A DNA stretch of 64,000 bases from the NCBI RefSeq assembly GCF_003986975.1, contig NZ_PIPO01000002.1, forward strand, positions 1 through 64,000. Direction: 5' to 3'. The notes beneath the pieces are model-generated. The model did not search any database. It was not told where the DNA came from and saw only the letters and a list, made by a program, of their open reading frames with translations. The DNA comes from Aliidiomarina soli. Its GTDB lineage: Bacteria; Pseudomonadota; Gammaproteobacteria; Enterobacterales; Alteromonadaceae. Position 1 is the stretch's first letter, and each line of letters starts with the position of its first letter. Below are positions 17,586 to 23,884 of this stretch, piece after piece. The translations under genes and the position numbers were made by a program.

Positions 17586-18113
17586 TCAGGACAGCGCGTA
17601 AGCAGTTTTCGCTGCATTCAAAACCGCAGCCATCTTGGCCGCACTTTGCACGGCCTGGGCTGATACGCCATGATCCAGCAGTGTCTTCACATGCGAATCA
17701 ATGCACATGCCGCAGCCATTGAGGGCGGATACTGCCAATGAATAAAGTTCGAAATCAACTTTCTCGACACCTGGGTTCGCCATTGCGTTCATGCGCAGTC
17801 CGGCAGGCATCTTGGCAAACTGTTTGTCAGAGGCCAGGTGTAAAAATCGATAGTAAATATTGTTCATCGCCATTAACGAGGCAGCGGTTTTAGCCGCTTC
17901 AACCACGTTGGCTTCAACATTGCCTTCGGCTTCAGCTTCGACTGCTTTGATCAGCTTGCTGTCATTCAGCGAATAGGCCAGAGAAAGCGCTGTTCCATAA
18001 AACTGGTCCTTGGTCATCCCACTTGCGTCAGGATTGGAAAACAGGTTACCCAGATTCAGCTTGGTATCTTTTGAGTGGCTACCAAGCCCTGATTTGTAGT
18101 CTGCAATAGTCAT
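17586..18113 (-). CDS. ahpD: Alkyl hydroperoxidase AhpD
   Basis: 175 residues, matching the size and overall pattern of mycobacterial AhpD (MNNIYYR, PAGLRMNAMANPG, FELYSLAVSALNGC). The catalytic CGMCIDSH places Cys134, Cys137 and His141 in the expected arrangement. AhpD reduces AhpC and has weak peroxidase activity of its own, so it probably supplies electrons to the peroxiredoxin encoded just upstream in place of AhpF, which is absent here. It is 104 bases downstream of ahpC with a strong hairpin between them. Confidence 0.93.
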   Translation of the reverse strand: MTIADYKSGLGSHSKDTKLNLGNLFSNPDASGMTKDQFYGTALSLAYSLNDSKLIKAVEAEAEGNVEANVVEAAKTAASLMAMNNIYYRFLHLASDKQFAKMPAGLRMNAMANPGVEKVDFELYSLAVSALNGCGMCIDSHVKTLLDHGVSAQAVQSAAKMAAVLNAAKTAYALS

Positions 18114-18171
18114 ACTTCACTCCAAAATTAGTTGCGTACTGAACAAGGTGGCTTAACAGCCGGGAAATAGC

Positions 18172-18198
18172 AGCGGTGCCCGGTGCTGTGGCACCGCT
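18172..18198 (-). repeat. Hairpin between ahpC and ahpD
   Basis: AGCGGTGCC (18172-18180) and GGCACCGCT (18190-18198) form a perfect 9-bp stem with a 9-base loop about 20 bases past the ahpC stop. No T tract follows. It may stabilise the ahpC transcript or attenuate read-through, giving more AhpC than AhpD. Confidence 0.55.
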
Positions 18199-18217
18199 GA
18201 CGTACTGGGCGCCTCGG

Positions 18218-18766
18218 TTACAGAGTATCGCCACCCACCGCACGGTTACATGGGCACAGCTCATCGGTTTGCAAACCATCGAGGATACGTACGATTTCCT
18301 GAGGGTTACGGCCCACGTTGAGGCTGTTCACTGAAACGTGCTGAATGGTGTTGTGTGGGTCAACCACGAAAGTCGCACGCAACGCCACGTTCTCTTCTTT
18401 GTCACGAACACCAAGACCATCGACCAGGTCGCCTGAAGTATCAGCAAATGAATACTGGTTCAGGCCATTCAGATCCGGGTGCTCACGACGCCATGCCAGC
18501 TTCACAAACTCGTTATCTGTGCTGCCGCCAAGAACTACTGCGTCACGGTCTGCAAACTCTTCATTCAGTTTCGCAAACTCAACGATTTCAGTTGGGCATA
18601 CGAAGGTGAAGTCTTTCGGGTAGAAAAAGATAACTTTCCACTTACCTTCAAAGCTGTCCTGAGTAATAGTCTCAAAAGCACTTTGCCCATTCTCTTCTGG
18701 CATGTTGAATCCAGGCTTCGCTGCAACAACTGAGAAATCTGGTAATTTATCGCCTACTGTTAACAT
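18218..18766 (-). CDS. ahpC: Peroxiredoxin AhpC (typical 2-Cys)
   Basis: 182 residues from the ATG at 18766, which has GGAGG eight bases upstream; the frame is open to 18811 but without a ribosome site. Peroxidatic Cys57 sits in FTFVCPTE and the C-terminal CPC (171-173) holds the resolving cysteine. The order ahpC-ahpD next to a divergent oxyR matches the Actinobacteria-like AhpC/AhpD system rather than the enteric AhpC/AhpF pair. It reduces hydrogen peroxide and organic peroxides in the cytoplasm. Expression is probably activated by OxyR. Confidence 0.95.
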   Translation of the reverse strand: MLTVGDKLPDFSVVAAKPGFNMPEENGQSAFETITQDSFEGKWKVIFFYPKDFTFVCPTEIVEFAKLNEEFADRDAVVLGGSTDNEFVKLAWRREHPDLNGLNQYSFADTSGDLVDGLGVRDKEENVALRATFVVDPHNTIQHVSVNSLNVGRNPQEIVRILDGLQTDELCPCNRAVGGDTL

Positions 18767-18814
18767 AATTCGTCCTCCAATTAGGATTGCTGTTTGAAAT
18801 TCACGTTGCACATG

Positions 18815-18855
18815 ATAGGTTTAGCTCTGCATCGACGAAAGCGAATAAAAACTAT
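18815..18855. promoter_or_regulatory. Possible OxyR-binding region between ahpC and oxyR
   Basis: The intergenic region has an ATAG at 18815-18818 and a CTAT at 18852-18855, elements of the OxyR ATAG-N7-CTAT-N7-ATAG-N7-CTAT motif, but the inner elements match poorly and the spacing is off by four. The divergent layout makes an operator here likely; its exact position is a guess. Confidence 0.3.
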
Positions 18856-18901
18856 CACAGTAATCGGTTAAACGAATAAAAGTGGTCAGCGGGAGAACTC
18901 C

Positions 18902-19816
18902 ATGAACAAACTGCCAAGTCTGAAGAACCTTAGCTATCTACTGGCATTGCATCAGCATCAGAATTTCAACCGTGCTGCGCAGGCTTGCTACGTCAGCCAG
19001 TCCACATTAAGCAGTGGCATTCAAAATCTGGAAGAACAACTTGGCTGTCAGCTGATTGAGCGGGACCATAAGTCTTTCCTGTTCACCAGCATGGGCGAAG
19101 AAATTGTCGACCTGTCCCGCAATATTCTGACCCAAACCGAAGAATTGATGAATCACGCCCAAAGCCAGGGCAATATTATGGAAGGCCCTTTGCGGCTTGG
19201 CTGTATTCCGACCATTGGCCCTTTCCTGCTCGGCCCTTTGAGTCGCCGCCTGCATGACGACTTTCCGAAGCTGCAATTGCAGATCCGCGAAGACACCACC
19301 GCGCACCTGATGCAGCTGTTAAAGAATGGCGAACTGGATGCACTTATTCTGGCCTTACCGATTGAAACTCAGGGCAACCAGTCCTGGGTACTGGGTAAAG
19401 ATCCGTTCAAGATGGTGCTACACCCGGATCTGGCCAAAGACGTCGGCGAGCCCGTGGACTACAATAAGCTGCCGGATCAAAGCATTTTCCTGCTTGAGCA
19501 TGAACACTGTATGACCGGGCATGCGGTCACCGCCTGTCGCTTAGGTAATAGCCGTAAGATCAATCCTTTTACCGCATCCAGTCTGCATAGCCTGGTGCAA
19601 ATGGCCGAAGCGCGGACCGGCGCCACCTTTGTGCCACAAATGGCAATCGACCAGGGAATCCTAAGTAACACTGAACTGGTTGCGCTGACCCCGACAGACG
19701 GTGAAGCCTATCGTGAAATAGGGCTGCTATTCAGACCCACCACGTCGCGCCGCCAAACATTCCGCAAAATTGCGGAAACGGTTGCAGACTTATTACCAAT
19801 ATCGACGTTAAGCTAA
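18902..19816 (+). CDS. oxyR: Hydrogen peroxide-inducible regulator OxyR
   Basis: 304 residues. N-terminal LysR-type winged helix (about 1-65; NFNRAAQACYVSQSTLSSGIQ) and a periplasmic-binding-protein-like sensor domain. Cys203 and Cys212 in EHCMTGHAVTACRLG have the nine-residue spacing of the redox pair Cys199/Cys208 of E. coli OxyR. Oxidation forms the disulfide that activates transcription. It is divergent from ahpC-ahpD, its probable target, and probably represses itself. Confidence 0.93.
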   Translation: MNKLPSLKNLSYLLALHQHQNFNRAAQACYVSQSTLSSGIQNLEEQLGCQLIERDHKSFLFTSMGEEIVDLSRNILTQTEELMNHAQSQGNIMEGPLRLGCIPTIGPFLLGPLSRRLHDDFPKLQLQIREDTTAHLMQLLKNGELDALILALPIETQGNQSWVLGKDPFKMVLHPDLAKDVGEPVDYNKLPDQSIFLLEHEHCMTGHAVTACRLGNSRKINPFTASSLHSLVQMAEARTGATFVPQMAIDQGILSNTELVALTPTDGEAYREIGLLFRPTTSRRQTFRKIAETVADLLPISTLS

Positions 19817-19918
19817 ATAATGACATCGATAAGCAGCCACTGAACTTGTAGAAGCAAACATCCGTATAGCACTATCAACGCGGATCAGAATACGTCTCAT
19901 AACAGACTGGAGAGCAAC

Positions 19919-21049
19919 ATGAAATTAGTTACCCGTTCACTCGCCTTGGTAAGCCTAAGCGTTATGACGCTGGCTGCAGCCCAGGCTGAAACCATTGAAA
20001 CCCGCTGGGCTGATGTCGACGTCGAAACCGTCAGCGAAGGCCTTAACCACCCATGGGGACTGGCGTTTTTAAATGACGGCCGGATGCTGGTGACAGAGCG
20101 CGCAGGTACCATGCGTATTATTGAGGCGGACGGCACACACGGAGAACCCATTAGTGGCTTACCTGAAATCAAGGTTATGCGCCAGGGCGGACTATTCGAC
20201 GTAAAATTGAGCCCCAATTACAGCAGCGATAGCCTGATTTATTTCGCCTATTCAGAACCTGAAAGCGAAGGCAGTGAAATCACCAGTACTGCGGTTGCCC
20301 GCGCTCGCCTCGAAGACAACGCGCTGCATGATCTTGAAGTTATCTTCAGTCAGTATCCAAAAGAAGAAGGTGGTCGTCACTACGGTGGTCGGCTGACATT
20401 TAGCGACGATGGCGAGTATCTGTTTATCGGGCTTGGTGACCGCGGACACCGTCAGGATGATGCCCAGACGCTGGATAAGCACACTGGTAAGCTGGTTCGA
20501 ATCCATCCCGACGGTTCGGTGCCGGAGGACAACCCGTACGTCAACGAAGAAGGCGCTCTTGAGGAAATCTGGTCTTACGGCCACCGCAATATCCAGGGCA
20601 TGGATATCCAACCTTCAACCGGTCATTTGTGGGCTGTCGAGCATGGCCCACAAGGCGGTGACGAACTGAACCGCCCACAATCCGGACACAACTATGGCTG
20701 GCCAGTTATAACCCATGGTGAACAGTACGGTGGTGGCGAAGTGGGTATCGGCTTTAAGAAAGACGATATGGAACTGCCGGTTTGGCACTGGACACCTTCT
20801 ATCGCCGTATCGGGCATGACCTTTTATGACGGAAACCAGTTCCCGGCATGGCAGGGAAATGTCCTGGCAACCGGTTTGCGCGGACAACAGGTAGCGCGAC
20901 TCGAAGTCGATGGTGACCATGTTATTCATCAGGAAACTCTGGAACTTGGCCAACGTATCCGAGAAATTCAGGTTGGCCCAGATGGGTACATTTATTTGTT
21001 AACGGACGACGCGGATGGAAAAGTACTGCGTTTATCTCCTGCTGAGTAA
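19919..21049 (+). CDS. PQQ-dependent aldose sugar dehydrogenase family protein (YliI-like)
   Basis: 376 residues with a cleavable signal peptide (cut after AQA, about residue 24). The rest is a six-bladed beta propeller of the glucose/sorbosone dehydrogenase family: GLNHPWGLAFL, LVTERAGTMRII, GGLFDVKLSP, GGRHYGGRLTF, GLGDRGHR, SYGHRNIQGM and EHGPQGGDELN. E. coli YliI of this family oxidises aldoses in the periplasm using PQQ. It is followed 18 bases later by a YncD/PqqU-like TonB receptor, supporting PQQ as cofactor. No PQQ synthesis genes are in the window. An ATG at 19919 with GGAGAG upstream is the start. Confidence 0.9.
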   Translation: MKLVTRSLALVSLSVMTLAAAQAETIETRWADVDVETVSEGLNHPWGLAFLNDGRMLVTERAGTMRIIEADGTHGEPISGLPEIKVMRQGGLFDVKLSPNYSSDSLIYFAYSEPESEGSEITSTAVARARLEDNALHDLEVIFSQYPKEEGGRHYGGRLTFSDDGEYLFIGLGDRGHRQDDAQTLDKHTGKLVRIHPDGSVPEDNPYVNEEGALEEIWSYGHRNIQGMDIQPSTGHLWAVEHGPQGGDELNRPQSGHNYGWPVITHGEQYGGGEVGIGFKKDDMELPVWHWTPSIAVSGMTFYDGNQFPAWQGNVLATGLRGQQVARLEVDGDHVIHQETLELGQRIREIQVGPDGYIYLLTDDADGKVLRLSPAE

Positions 21050-21067
21050 GCCTGCGGAGTGGTATCT

Positions 21068-23146
21068 ATGAATCAATCAATTTCAAGGCTCGCGATCACC
21101 GCGAGCCTTTTTTCATTGGCTTTACCCGCGACGGGTGTCGCCAGCGACGCAAACGACTCTGTTAGCGCACAAGAGGAACCGATTGAGCGGGTCGTGGTAA
21201 CAGCAACGCGCACCCGCCAGCCCTGGTTGAACTCAGCTGGTTCTATCGACCGCGTGGAAGTCGAGCAGCAACTCCCGGGCATGCGCATCGACATGGCAGA
21301 AATTCTGGCCGGGATTCCCGGCGTGCAAACCGATACCCGCTACAATTTTGCTCAGGACACCCGTATCGTATTGCGTGGGTTCGGCGCCCGGGCCGCCTTT
21401 GGTGTGCGCGGTGTTGTCATGCGACTGGACGGTATTCCATTGTCGATGCCCGACGGGCAGGCACAAACGTCGAGTATCTTTGTCGATGAACCGGCTCATG
21501 TGGAAGTCCTCCGCGGCCCCATTGCCAGCGTCTATGGCAACGCGGCGGGCGGAGTCATCAACCTGCAAAGCACACAACCCCGACAAAGCTATCTTGGTGC
21601 CTCTCTTGCGGTCGGCGAAAACGGCCGTCAACGAACCGCTTTGAATGGCGCTTATGTGCAGGGTCCGTTCTTTTTATCCGGGCATTATGCCGGCTTCCGC
21701 ACCGACGGCGACCGTTCTCACGGCAACGTAGAGCGCGACCAGTACGCATTGCGCAGCGGCTATCAGTTTGCTAACGGGCTGGAGCTTATTGTGCGTGCCG
21801 ATGACAACAATGCGCCCTTGTTGCAGGACCCGGGCTCGTTAACCGCTGAACAATGGCGGGAAGATCCGCAGCAAACCTTTGCTGGCGCTACTGTGTTCAA
21901 CACCCGCAAGCAGATCCGTCATCGTCAGCAGTCTGTCACCCTACGTCAGACCCTGACCACAGTCGACTGGCAACTAGCAGCCTGGAATGGACAACGAGAG
22001 GTAGAACAATTTCTACCCTTTCCAGGCTCTGACCTGACCTCCTCGGGCGCTGTAATAGACCTGACCCGTGATTTTTACGGAGTTCATGGTCAGGTCAACT
22101 GGCGTCCGGCAGCCTTCAACGACCAATGGCAGTTGAGTCTGGGAACCGATATTGAACGACAGCAAGACACGCGCCTGGGTTTTGTAAATAATTTTGGCAC
22201 AGCAGGTGATCTGCGCCGTGACGAAACCGGCGATGTTGAGAAGACTGATCTCTACGCGCTCAGTCAGTATGCACTTACTGACCAGTTAACCTGGTTACTC
22301 GGCGGTCGTGTCTCGGATATGAAGTTTGCGGTCGAGGACCGCTTTATAATTGACGGCATACGCCCGGACGACAGTGGCCAAATCGATTATTCCGAGCACG
22401 CCTGGACGACTGGTTTTAACTATCAGTTAACTGACACCTGGTCGGTATTTGCATCGGCTGGCGCTGGATTCGAAACCCCAACATTGACTGAACTAGCGTA
22501 TCGAAACGATGACAGTGGCCTCAACCCCGAACTCGGTCCGGCACAGGTGCAGCAGTTTGAATTTGGCCATAAGTGGCTCACTGAACGGGGGATGGCTCAG
22601 CTCAGCTTGTTTGAAGTGCGTACCGATGATGAAATCGTGGTTGATCAATCAATCGATGGCCGCACCACGTACCGAAACGCTGCAGAAACTAAACGCCAGG
22701 GTGTCGAGCTAAGCGGTACCTATCAGTGGACACCGATGCTTGATCTGCGTGGAGCGGCAACAATTATTAAGGCCCGCTATAAAGGTGGTCAGTTAGACGA
22801 CCAGCGTATCCCCGGGGTTGCAACCAGCAATCTGTATGCTCAAATCAATCTTTCACCCTGGCAGGATCAGCGTTTGCGTGCGTCGCTTACTGCACAGTAT
22901 CGCTCGCGAATTGCCAGTAACGACGGCAATACTGAATTCGCTCCCTCGTTCGTGCTTTGGCATAGCGCGGTGGAAGCACGCCAGCAGATCGCTCAATGGC
23001 AATTCCGCCAGTGGTTGCGGGTCGACAACCTGCTTGACCGCAACTACGTGGGTTCGGTCATTGTGAATCAAGGTAGTGGGCGCTCGTTCGAGCCTGCGCC
23101 AGGCCGCCAGTTAAGTGCTGGGTTGGCAGTCGAACGGCGCTTTTAA
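21068..23146 (+). CDS. TonB-dependent receptor, YncD/PqqU-like (probable PQQ importer)
   Basis: 692 residues from the ATG at 21068 (GGAG eight bases upstream; a GTG at 21059 is in frame). Signal peptide about 1-25, TonB box near IERVVVTATR, plug domain about 45-160, then a 22-strand barrel ending in aromatic F. As recalled, E. coli YncD (renamed PqqU, a PQQ receptor) shares the plug segment RGFGxRxxxGxRG, the barrel segment FETPTxxELxYR, and the C-terminal RVDNLxDxxYVGSVIVN with EPxPGR. The preceding gene is a PQQ-type dehydrogenase, so a cofactor-uptake role is well supported but inferred. No Fur box was noticed. Confidence 0.88.
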   Translation: MNQSISRLAITASLFSLALPATGVASDANDSVSAQEEPIERVVVTATRTRQPWLNSAGSIDRVEVEQQLPGMRIDMAEILAGIPGVQTDTRYNFAQDTRIVLRGFGARAAFGVRGVVMRLDGIPLSMPDGQAQTSSIFVDEPAHVEVLRGPIASVYGNAAGGVINLQSTQPRQSYLGASLAVGENGRQRTALNGAYVQGPFFLSGHYAGFRTDGDRSHGNVERDQYALRSGYQFANGLELIVRADDNNAPLLQDPGSLTAEQWREDPQQTFAGATVFNTRKQIRHRQQSVTLRQTLTTVDWQLAAWNGQREVEQFLPFPGSDLTSSGAVIDLTRDFYGVHGQVNWRPAAFNDQWQLSLGTDIERQQDTRLGFVNNFGTAGDLRRDETGDVEKTDLYALSQYALTDQLTWLLGGRVSDMKFAVEDRFIIDGIRPDDSGQIDYSEHAWTTGFNYQLTDTWSVFASAGAGFETPTLTELAYRNDDSGLNPELGPAQVQQFEFGHKWLTERGMAQLSLFEVRTDDEIVVDQSIDGRTTYRNAAETKRQGVELSGTYQWTPMLDLRGAATIIKARYKGGQLDDQRIPGVATSNLYAQINLSPWQDQRLRASLTAQYRSRIASNDGNTEFAPSFVLWHSAVEARQQIAQWQFRQWLRVDNLLDRNYVGSVIVNQGSGRSFEPAPGRQLSAGLAVERRF

Positions 23147-23152
23147 GTTAGG

Positions 23153-23188
23153 TGACCGGTGGTTATTTACTTTAATAACCACCGGTCA
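23153..23188. terminator. Long perfect hairpin between convergent genes
   Basis: TGACCGGTGGTTATT (23153-23167) pairs perfectly with its complement at 23174-23188 around a 6-base loop. It lies between the receptor stop (23146) and the stop of the convergent DJ-1 gene (23201), so it probably ends transcripts from both sides, although neither side has a T tract. Confidence 0.55.
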
Positions 23189-23200
23189 TATAGGCAAGCG

Positions 23201-23884
23201 TTAAGGTTCGCCATTCAGAATATGAAGCAGTGCTTTCGCTGCAGGCTCCGATGAGGCTGGGTTCTGCCCGGTAATCAACATGCCATCCTGAATAACATAT
23301 GGCTTCCAGTCATCGGTTTTCTCGTAGCGGGCTCCTTTACCTTTGAGTTCATCCTCAAGCAAAAACGGCACCACAGAGGTCAACTCAACGGCTTCTTCTT
23401 CGCTGTTACTGAAGCCAGTCACAGCGCGCCCTGCGATTAAAGGCTTTCCGACCAGGCTGGCGTTTAGCAGTACCGCGGGAGCATGGCAAACTGCAGCAAC
23501 AGCCTTACCCTGCTGCCAAAACTCCTCCAACAGACGAATGGATGTTTTATCTTCTGCCAGATCCCACATCGGTCCGTGTCCTCCAGGATAAAAAACCGCA
23601 TCAAAGTCATCAGCACTGACCTCGCTCAGCTTCACCGTGTTAGACAGGGTCTCCTGTAGCGCGTCATCTTTGTAAAAACGCTCTGTTGCTTCGGTCTGGG
23701 CATCCTCAGTTTCACTGTTTGGATCGATCGGCGGCCGACCACCTTTTGGCGATGCCAGGGTGATACTGACTCCGGCATCGGCGAACACATAATAGGGTGC
23801 AGCAAACTCTTCCGCCCAGAATCCGGTTTTGTTACCGGTATCTCCGAGTTGCTCATGGGACGTCAAAATCATTAATACTTTCAT
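23201..23884 (-). CDS. DJ-1/PfpI family protein (type 1 glutamine amidotransferase-like)
   Basis: 227 residues. Hsp31/class-like DJ-1 fold: MKVLMILTSH at the start, FAAPYYVFADAG, FYPGGHGPMWDL (about 97-108), and the nucleophile elbow AVCHAP with Cys about 134 followed by His. Relatives are glyoxalase III-type enzymes or protein deglycases/chaperones. The exact activity cannot be set from sequence. It is monocistronic, between the convergent receptor gene and the two-component operon. Confidence 0.88.
   Translation of the reverse strand: MKVLMILTSHEQLGDTGNKTGFWAEEFAAPYYVFADAGVSITLASPKGGRPPIDPNSETEDAQTEATERFYKDDALQETLSNTVKLSEVSADDFDAVFYPGGHGPMWDLAEDKTSIRLLEEFWQQGKAVAAVCHAPAVLLNASLVGKPLIAGRAVTGFSNSEEEAVELTSVVPFLLEDELKGKGARYEKTDDWKPYVIQDGMLITGQNPASSEPAAKALLHILNGEP

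Follow-up and report, generated by a model that had tools for sequence, protein, structure and literature searches.

A PQQ-type aldose dehydrogenase gene paired with a PqqU-family receptor gene in Aliidiomarina soli, with a conserved hairpin in the receptor's signal-peptide codons

Results

An aldose dehydrogenase gene precedes a PqqU-family receptor gene

We analysed the first 64,000 nucleotides of an Aliidiomarina soli contig (NCBI RefSeq assembly GCF_003986975.1, contig NZ_PIPO01000002.1, forward strand; hereafter the window), in which asd, a gene for an aldose dehydrogenase of the type that uses pyrroloquinoline quinone (PQQ), is followed on the same strand by pqqU, a gene for a TonB-dependent outer-membrane receptor (Table 1). 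The asd stop and the pqqU ATG are separated by 18 nt. An earlier interpretation made without database searches (the sequence-only reading) had named this very pair, a sugar dehydrogenase and a PqqU/YncD-like receptor 18 bases apart, and both identities were borne out by the family and structure matches described below.

The asd open reading frame encodes 376 amino acids and matches the glucose/sorbosone dehydrogenase (GSDH) family PF07995 with 443.2 bits against a gathering threshold of 25 bits, which places it in this family. Its best matches in the PDB are 7cdy (E = 6.7e-91), which we take to be the glucose dehydrogenase of P. aeruginosa, and E. coli YliI/Asd, 2g8s (E = 5.5e-90). When aligned to E. 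coli YliI, Asd retains the His (residue 154), the Arg-Asn pair (223-224), the EHGPxGGDE motif and the R-x-R positions, including the catalytic His and PQQ-binding Arg positions of the Asd/YliI type; at the K377-type Lys position of YliI it carries Arg, as do the aligned 2ism and 3a9g. The residue-to-residue mapping of Asd onto the numbering of soluble glucose dehydrogenase (sGDH) is presumptive and follows the motifs. The roles of His144, Lys377 and Arg408 in sGDH are described in the available text of PMC6881789 (AA12/sGDH), and according to that of PMC13088180 E. coli YliI is a PQQ-binding protein whose glucose dehydrogenase activity is restored by the cofactor.

From the ATG at 21068 (the mechanically called start is a GTG at 21059) pqqU encodes 692 amino acids. 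The receptor matches E. coli YncD/PqqU in the PDB (6v81, E = 4.8e-103; 9c4o, E = 9.4e-103), the next receptor following at 4.3e-7, and the alignment to E. coli PqqU spans residues 43-692, nearly its whole length, with 33.5% identity over aligned positions. The two C-terminal segments that the sequence-only reading had matched to YncD are indeed shared: E. coli PqqU has YVGSVIVN without a change, and EPxPGR occurs as EPAPGR in the window receptor and as EPSPGR in E. coli. PqqU-like matches were also found on 1008 plasmid records, all below 60% identity, and on two viral contigs.

In the available text of Munder et al. (PMC12124388), PqqU is defined by an aromatic residue at position 99 together with R304 and R365. 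By MAFFT alignment to E. coli PqqU, the window receptor has F99, R304 and R365, and it keeps the further PQQ contacts K274, R536, Q84, Q121, Q308 and Y481 (E. coli numbering); it differs at three of the 11 contact positions checked, namely 99 (an allowed change), 310 and 477. All 15 receptors of the genus carry identical letters at these 11 positions. Beyond the genus we used two samples: 370 Gammaproteobacteria, 43 of which have PqqU at E ≤ 1e-40 (the class sample; up to three candidates were scored per genome, so that some may have been missed), and the best 80 of 577 confirmed loci from named genomes. The signature is present in the best matches of 40 of the 43 class genomes (misses G159, G164 and G270) and at 77 of the 80 named loci (misses L199, L200 and L214, the last being G159 again). 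It is absent from six other TonB receptors taken as controls, two of them beside GSDH genes and four chance neighbours. The L200 locus belongs to a metagenome-assembled genome (MAG) titled Klebsiella pneumoniae; its receptor is 31% identical to the first sequence of the query and has Leu at 304, and the title may be wrong.

Table 1. Features of the asd-pqqU locus, in window coordinates.
Feature	Position	Strand	Basis
asd, secreted six-blade PQQ aldose (sugar) dehydrogenase, YliI type	19919..21049	+	PF07995; 7cdy/2g8s; YliI-aligned residues; signal-peptide-like N-terminus
pqqU, TonB-dependent outer-membrane receptor, PqqU family	21068..23146	+	6v81/9c4o, E ~1e-103; F99, R304, R365, K274, R536, Q84, Q121, Q308, Y481
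Terminator-like hairpin and U-tract, proposed attenuator between asd and pqqU	21085..21117	+	perfect 10-bp stem, 5-nt loop
oxyR-like LysR regulator gene	18902..19816	+	upstream neighbour in 15/15 genus genomes; 102 nt before asd
15-bp perfect inverted repeat, loop 6	23153..23188	.	between pqqU and convergent DJ-1/PfpI gene

The pair is conserved in the genus, where PqqC is absent

The sequence-only reading had suggested that the organism may not make PQQ. This was upheld for the three proteins searched: PqqB, PqqC and PqqD were not found in the 99.7%-complete genome (PqqA, PqqE and PqqF lay outside the search). PqqC is absent from all 17 genomes of the genus; the same search finds it over the cut-off in 15 of 80 genomes. 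Judged from its genome, the host seems to be a PQQ non-producer.

PqqU occurs in 15 of the 17 genus genomes, and each time its gene lies directly downstream of a same-strand GSDH gene, with a spacing of 2-73 nt when counted from the last sense codon to the mechanical start. The pair is followed in all 15 by a convergent NtrC-type gene, either directly or after a DJ-1 gene. In the two genomes that do not carry PqqU (G013 and G014), a PF07995 search at E ≤ 0.001 gave no match. Eight-blade quinoproteins (TIGR03075, E ≤ 1e-15; the E. coli control was positive) were matched among the 17 genomes only in the source genome and its near twin G010. Because no such match exists in the other 13 PqqU-bearing genomes, PF07995 enzymes are the sole candidate PQQ users seen there.

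The two genes adjoin repeatedly in other lineages

In the class sample a GSDH gene adjoins pqqU in seven of the 43 genomes, the source genome counted. The order is asd then pqqU in the source genome and G197, pqqU then asd in G144, G319 and G072, and divergent in G269 and G333; the enzyme of G072 is diverged (164 bits) and was counted but flagged. In G035 one gene stands between pqqU and the GSDH gene. A GSDH-like gene beside pqqU in G128 (49 bits) was considered and not counted as adjacency. Among the 42 class genomes other than the source genome, six adjacent pairs were observed where 0.04 would be expected. On a quick tree of PqqU the adjacent state needs five changes, four of them forced by starred branches, gain and loss being indistinguishable. 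PqqC exceeds the cut-off in none of the seven adjacent genomes as against 14 of the 36 non-adjacent ones (p = 0.08).

Around the 80 named loci, where flanks of up to 5 kb (shorter in some) were examined, a GSDH gene lies near pqqU only in three Nitrosomonas loci and, as a weak match, in Aquisalimonas (L162). In all three Nitrosomonas loci (L209, L212 and L215; genomes G446, G449 and G451) pqqU is followed immediately, on the same strand and at a distance of about 50-90 nt, by a canonical asd, and G319 has the same layout with a 67-80% identical PqqU. The Nitrosomonas genomes have no TIGR03075 match; their PqqC-like match is weak (61-69 bits, where the cut-off is 240), and we take it to be a CADD-like protein and not PQQ synthesis.

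As a control, the surroundings of a single GSDH gene per genome were inspected in 20 PqqU-negative genomes. Another TonB receptor adjoins the gene in two (G017 and G034), and receptor frames lie 2-3 kb from it in one more (L128). In G017 and G034, which carry neither PqqU nor PqqC, the GSDH beside the receptor is fused to an N-terminal cytochrome c domain (L131 5227-9220; L139 2208-5707). The two receptors belong to another family, are 37% identical to each other, do not have the PqqU signature and are perhaps a different importer for the same class of enzyme. This family was rejected as a general GSDH partner: it was found in 19 of 197 genomes of the order, and within 1.5 kb flanks of these 19 loci a GSDH gene occurs only in G017 and G034 and, weakly, in G024.

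PqqU and PF07995 co-occur beyond the genus

PF07995 (E ≤ 1e-30) was found in 39 of the 43 PqqU-positive class genomes as compared to 17 of 37 PqqU-negative ones, taken from 327 negatives (Fisher p = 1.8e-5, relatedness not corrected). PqqC exceeds the cut-off in 14 of the 43, and the four that lack PF07995 (G095, G140, G225 and G301) all have PqqC. Conversely, PF07995 is present in 29/29 PqqU genomes that do not have PqqC, and in 19/19 that have neither PqqC nor TIGR03075, at E ≤ 1e-80 in 17 of these; the weak matches are G072 and G348.

From the 80 named loci, 50 genomes chosen for diversity were searched. PF07995 was found in 44, TIGR03075 in 36 and PqqC over the cut-off in 17. Twelve of the 14 named genomes with neither PqqC over the cut-off nor TIGR03075 have PF07995, ten of them at E ≤ 1e-80. 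It is to be noted that at least six of the 50 (L142, L192, L197, L205, L207 and L214) belong to the class sample as well, and that two of these six are among the 14. Of the genomes titled or placed as Ectothiorhodospiraceae, Thioalkalivibrio G407 has PF07995 without TIGR03075, and G413 and G423 have both. In Nitrospinota, G421 has a weak PF07995 match (1.5e-40) together with a TIGR03075 match, and G443 has neither.

A hairpin conserved as RNA lies inside the pqqU signal-peptide codons

A GC-rich hairpin occupies 21085-21109, starting 17 nt past the A of the pqqU ATG, and is followed by a U-tract, as in an intrinsic terminator. Its codons encode RLAITASLF of the PqqU signal peptide. A hairpin of the same kind, in the same frame, is present in all 15 pqqU genes of the genus, with differing sequences; each folds on its own at -12.8 to -19.0 kcal/mol and is present in the minimum-energy fold of its region.

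When codons were shuffled synonymously with the protein fixed, drawing on each genome's own asd and pqqU usage, only two of 6000 shuffles (15 genes x 400) reached the observed hairpin score, and none of the 15 asd genes scores above 16.5 at its start, compared with 28.5-35.0 for the pqqU hairpins. Over the 14 distinct hairpin sequences, 94.2% of pair cells are standard pairs against 80.6% in shuffled alignments (0/500 as high), seven of 11 pairs vary on both sides against 3.6 (5/500 as high), and covariation is 0.532 against 0.236 (0/500), sliding of the partner giving 0.145 at most. The hairpin is thus strongly supported as a conserved RNA element.

No hairpin reaching the threshold was found in 124 receptor genes outside the genus (class and named sets, partly overlapping) or in 274 interior coding tiles of the window. 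In a survey of 464 kb that includes the window, about 15% of the genome, such a hairpin occurs within the first 150 nt of three of 307 genes, the pqqU one scoring highest, and of six receptor-like frames (two being halves of one gene) only pqqU has one in this region. Of the 54 terminator-like sites in the 464 kb, eight are intragenic and on the strand of the gene; one deep in an L251 gene is stronger than that of pqqU. In the split receptor gene, which runs from L250 19067-19999 into L251, a terminator-like hairpin with a short T3 tail occurs among the plug codons, 172 nt into the frame.

Single-sequence folds, to which the folding analysis was confined (no consensus fold was run), gave no evident antiterminator upstream of the hairpin, and no leader peptide was found for it. 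Among the Rfam matches listed for 18800-23300 none exceeds its gathering threshold; one below it is to isrJ, a model of an Hfq-binding small RNA (28.1 bits, gathering 37).

Flanking genes and intergenic sites

All 15 PqqU-bearing genomes of the genus share the order oxyR-asd-pqqU, and ahpC/ahpD were found in 14. In the window ahpD and ahpC are divergent to oxyR, this group (17586-19816) lying directly upstream of asd-pqqU. Because the gene order is conserved and ahpC/ahpD adjoin it, a link to peroxide stress is possible. No terminator-like site was reported between oxyR and asd, and promoter-like sites there are barely above chance (5 found, 3.4 expected). A promoter or regulator site shared within the genus was sought in these spacers and rejected, as the 24-247 nt sequences align without a common motif. 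The inverted repeat behind pqqU is likely to mark the end of the transcription unit.

Discussion

We consider it likely that asd and pqqU form a unit for the scavenging and use of PQQ. In such a unit, PQQ released by other microbes would cross the outer membrane through PqqU, energised by TonB, and in the periplasm PQQ and Ca2+ would convert apo-Asd into an active aldose dehydrogenase that oxidises a sugar and feeds electrons towards the respiratory chain. The two genes would be transcribed together. The sequence-only reading had described scavenging as hard-wired to the apo-enzyme that uses the cofactor. That reading is supported, in that neither PqqB, PqqC nor PqqD was found and the receptor, whose probable ligand is PQQ, has the PQQ-contact signature; "hard-wired" is too strong, since the genome holds two further candidate PQQ enzymes and since the hairpin in pqqU may uncouple both genes.

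Several observations weigh against a scavenging unit built on Asd. The source genome carries a second PF07995 gene (L104 7574-8920), beside two aldehyde dehydrogenase genes, and a gene for a secreted soluble eight-blade quinoprotein of 633 amino acids (L105 7518-9419; PF01011, 640 bits). The receptor falls outside the narrow NCBI PqqU equivalog NF041535 (458.4 bits, cut-off 1200). Adjacency is a minority arrangement, seen in seven of 43 class genomes and four of 80 named loci (one of them weak), and E. coli keeps yliI and pqqU apart. PF07995 is carried by 17 of 37 PqqU-negative class genomes and was not matched in two of the 14 named orphans, the MAG G405 and the Nitrospina MAG G443. Finally, of 21 relatives from the order that lie outside the genus, 10 encode a strong Asd (E ≤ 1e-80) and neither PqqU nor PqqC. 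These must obtain PQQ by diffusion or through a different receptor, or else go without it; Asd is thus a frequent and not an obligate partner of PqqU.

Some of these observations would suit a receptor that serves the whole periplasmic quinoprotein pool, with asd as one client of several and the pairing an accident of ancestry in each lineage: the two additional enzymes of the source genome, which PqqU probably supplies as well, and the lack of a nearby GSDH gene at most PqqU loci examined. We nevertheless regard this account as unlikely, because the pairing, with more than one gene arrangement, recurs on distinct branches of the PqqU tree, far above chance, and because 13 of the 15 PqqU genomes of the genus offer no eight-blade match. 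Still less probable, in our view, is a receptor that imports another ligand (a sugar acid, a lactone, a siderophore or another quinone) and adjoins asd as the supplier of the enzyme's substrate. TonB receptors do switch ligand readily, as is generally known and as noted in PMC12124388, the identity to E. coli PqqU is modest and the equivalog cut-off is not reached, and two relatives without PqqU have a signature-less TonB receptor beside a GSDH-cytochrome c fusion. However, all 15 genus receptors retain the signature triad and most other PQQ contacts while the control receptors do not have the triad, and none of PqqB, PqqC and PqqD was found.

The position of the hairpin suggests that it is a terminator which translation of pqqU must overcome, coupling attenuation to translation. 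Throughout the genus, transcription from asd into pqqU would probably meet this terminator in the first pqqU codons, and ribosomes translating pqqU would keep the hairpin from forming; asd mRNA should therefore exceed pqqU mRNA, and blocked initiation on pqqU would shut off the remainder of that gene. If so, the importer could be switched off, for instance by plentiful PQQ or by a small RNA that blocks pqqU initiation, while asd stays on. The same structure could instead be the mere 3' end of the asd mRNA, or the source of a 3'-derived small RNA, with pqqU transcribed mainly by occasional read-through. The terminator shape with its U-tract, the sub-threshold isrJ match and the lack of an evident antiterminator in single-sequence folds are consistent with this account, which we hold to be possible though doubtful, given that the hairpin lies within pqqU codons, where ribosomes would meet it, in 15 of 15 genomes. 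A terminator is common to this account and to attenuation, which differ only in whether read-through is controlled.

The pairing bears on bacteria reported to have PqqU and neither PQQ synthesis nor a PQQ enzyme (orphans). Munder et al. (PMC12124388) list Nitrosomonadaceae (n = 40), Ectothiorhodospirales (n = 8), Arenimonas, Nitrospinota and Ignavibacteriota, and suggest that an enzyme was missed by their own search or that PQQ has an antioxidant role. Their Pfam list holds PF01011, PF13360 and PF13570, supplemented by a quinoprotein hidden Markov model from another study, the content of which was not inspected here; PF07995, YliI, Asd and aldose do not occur in the main text. PF07995, absent from that Pfam list, fills the gap in most of the orphan genomes sampled and is encoded by the next gene in three Nitrosomonas loci. 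Asd as that missing client would be the simplest explanation, one that does not hold so far for Nitrospinota. Taken together, Asd-type enzymes would be overlooked PQQ clients of many orphan-PqqU bacteria such as Nitrosomonas, and in the genus the importer would stand under a translation-coupled terminator that keeps enzyme mRNA above importer mRNA; we advance this combined proposal tentatively, giving it a little less than an even chance.

The finding points to an enzyme open to direct testing and yields a simple rule by which PQQ users may be found, and the conserved hairpin may be a point at which an outer-membrane nutrient receptor is controlled. At the level of titles and abstract beginnings, no description was found in the openly licensed literature of the asd-pqqU pairing or of a terminator in the signal-peptide codons of a TonB receptor, and the pairing is unmentioned in the available text of PMC12124388, PMC13088180, PMC13412088 and PMC11658791. 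We thus regard the locus as known parts in a pairing for which no description was found, together with a strongly supported RNA element of proposed function.

Comparison with known systems

Asd resembles E. coli YliI/Asd (2g8s) and 7cdy in belonging to the PF07995 six-blade family, in the catalytic His and Arg positions and in export; YliI differs in its K377-type Lys, where the window enzyme has Arg, and the window asd shares a unit with pqqU. The soluble glucose dehydrogenase of Acinetobacter calcoaceticus (1c9u) has the same fold and cofactor class and matches Asd residues 31-265, but belongs to the sGDH-B subfamily TIGR03606, of which the window Asd is not a member (119.5 bits, cut-off 434.55). 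E. coli PqqU (YncD; 9c4o/6v81; PMC12124388) is alike over its whole length, in the signature and most PQQ contacts, and in its non-producing host; the window receptor has F for Y99, L for Q310 and T for N477. In the genus pqqU adjoins asd, whereas the E. coli gene adjoins yncE and not yliI. These two E. coli K-12 genes are divergent, and yncE is annotated as a PQQ-like domain protein (L058 2964-6369). The Nitrosomonas pqqU-asd loci share both families, adjacent and on the same strand, with no PqqC over the cut-off, and differ in their reverse gene order, in an E-type receptor (Glu at 274) and in having no pqqU hairpin. Translation-dependent transcription attenuators and intragenic intrinsic terminators exist as a class, which the pqqU element resembles in its GC-rich hairpin and U-tract at the start of a reading frame; unlike them, it is part of the structural gene, lying within the codons for the signal peptide.

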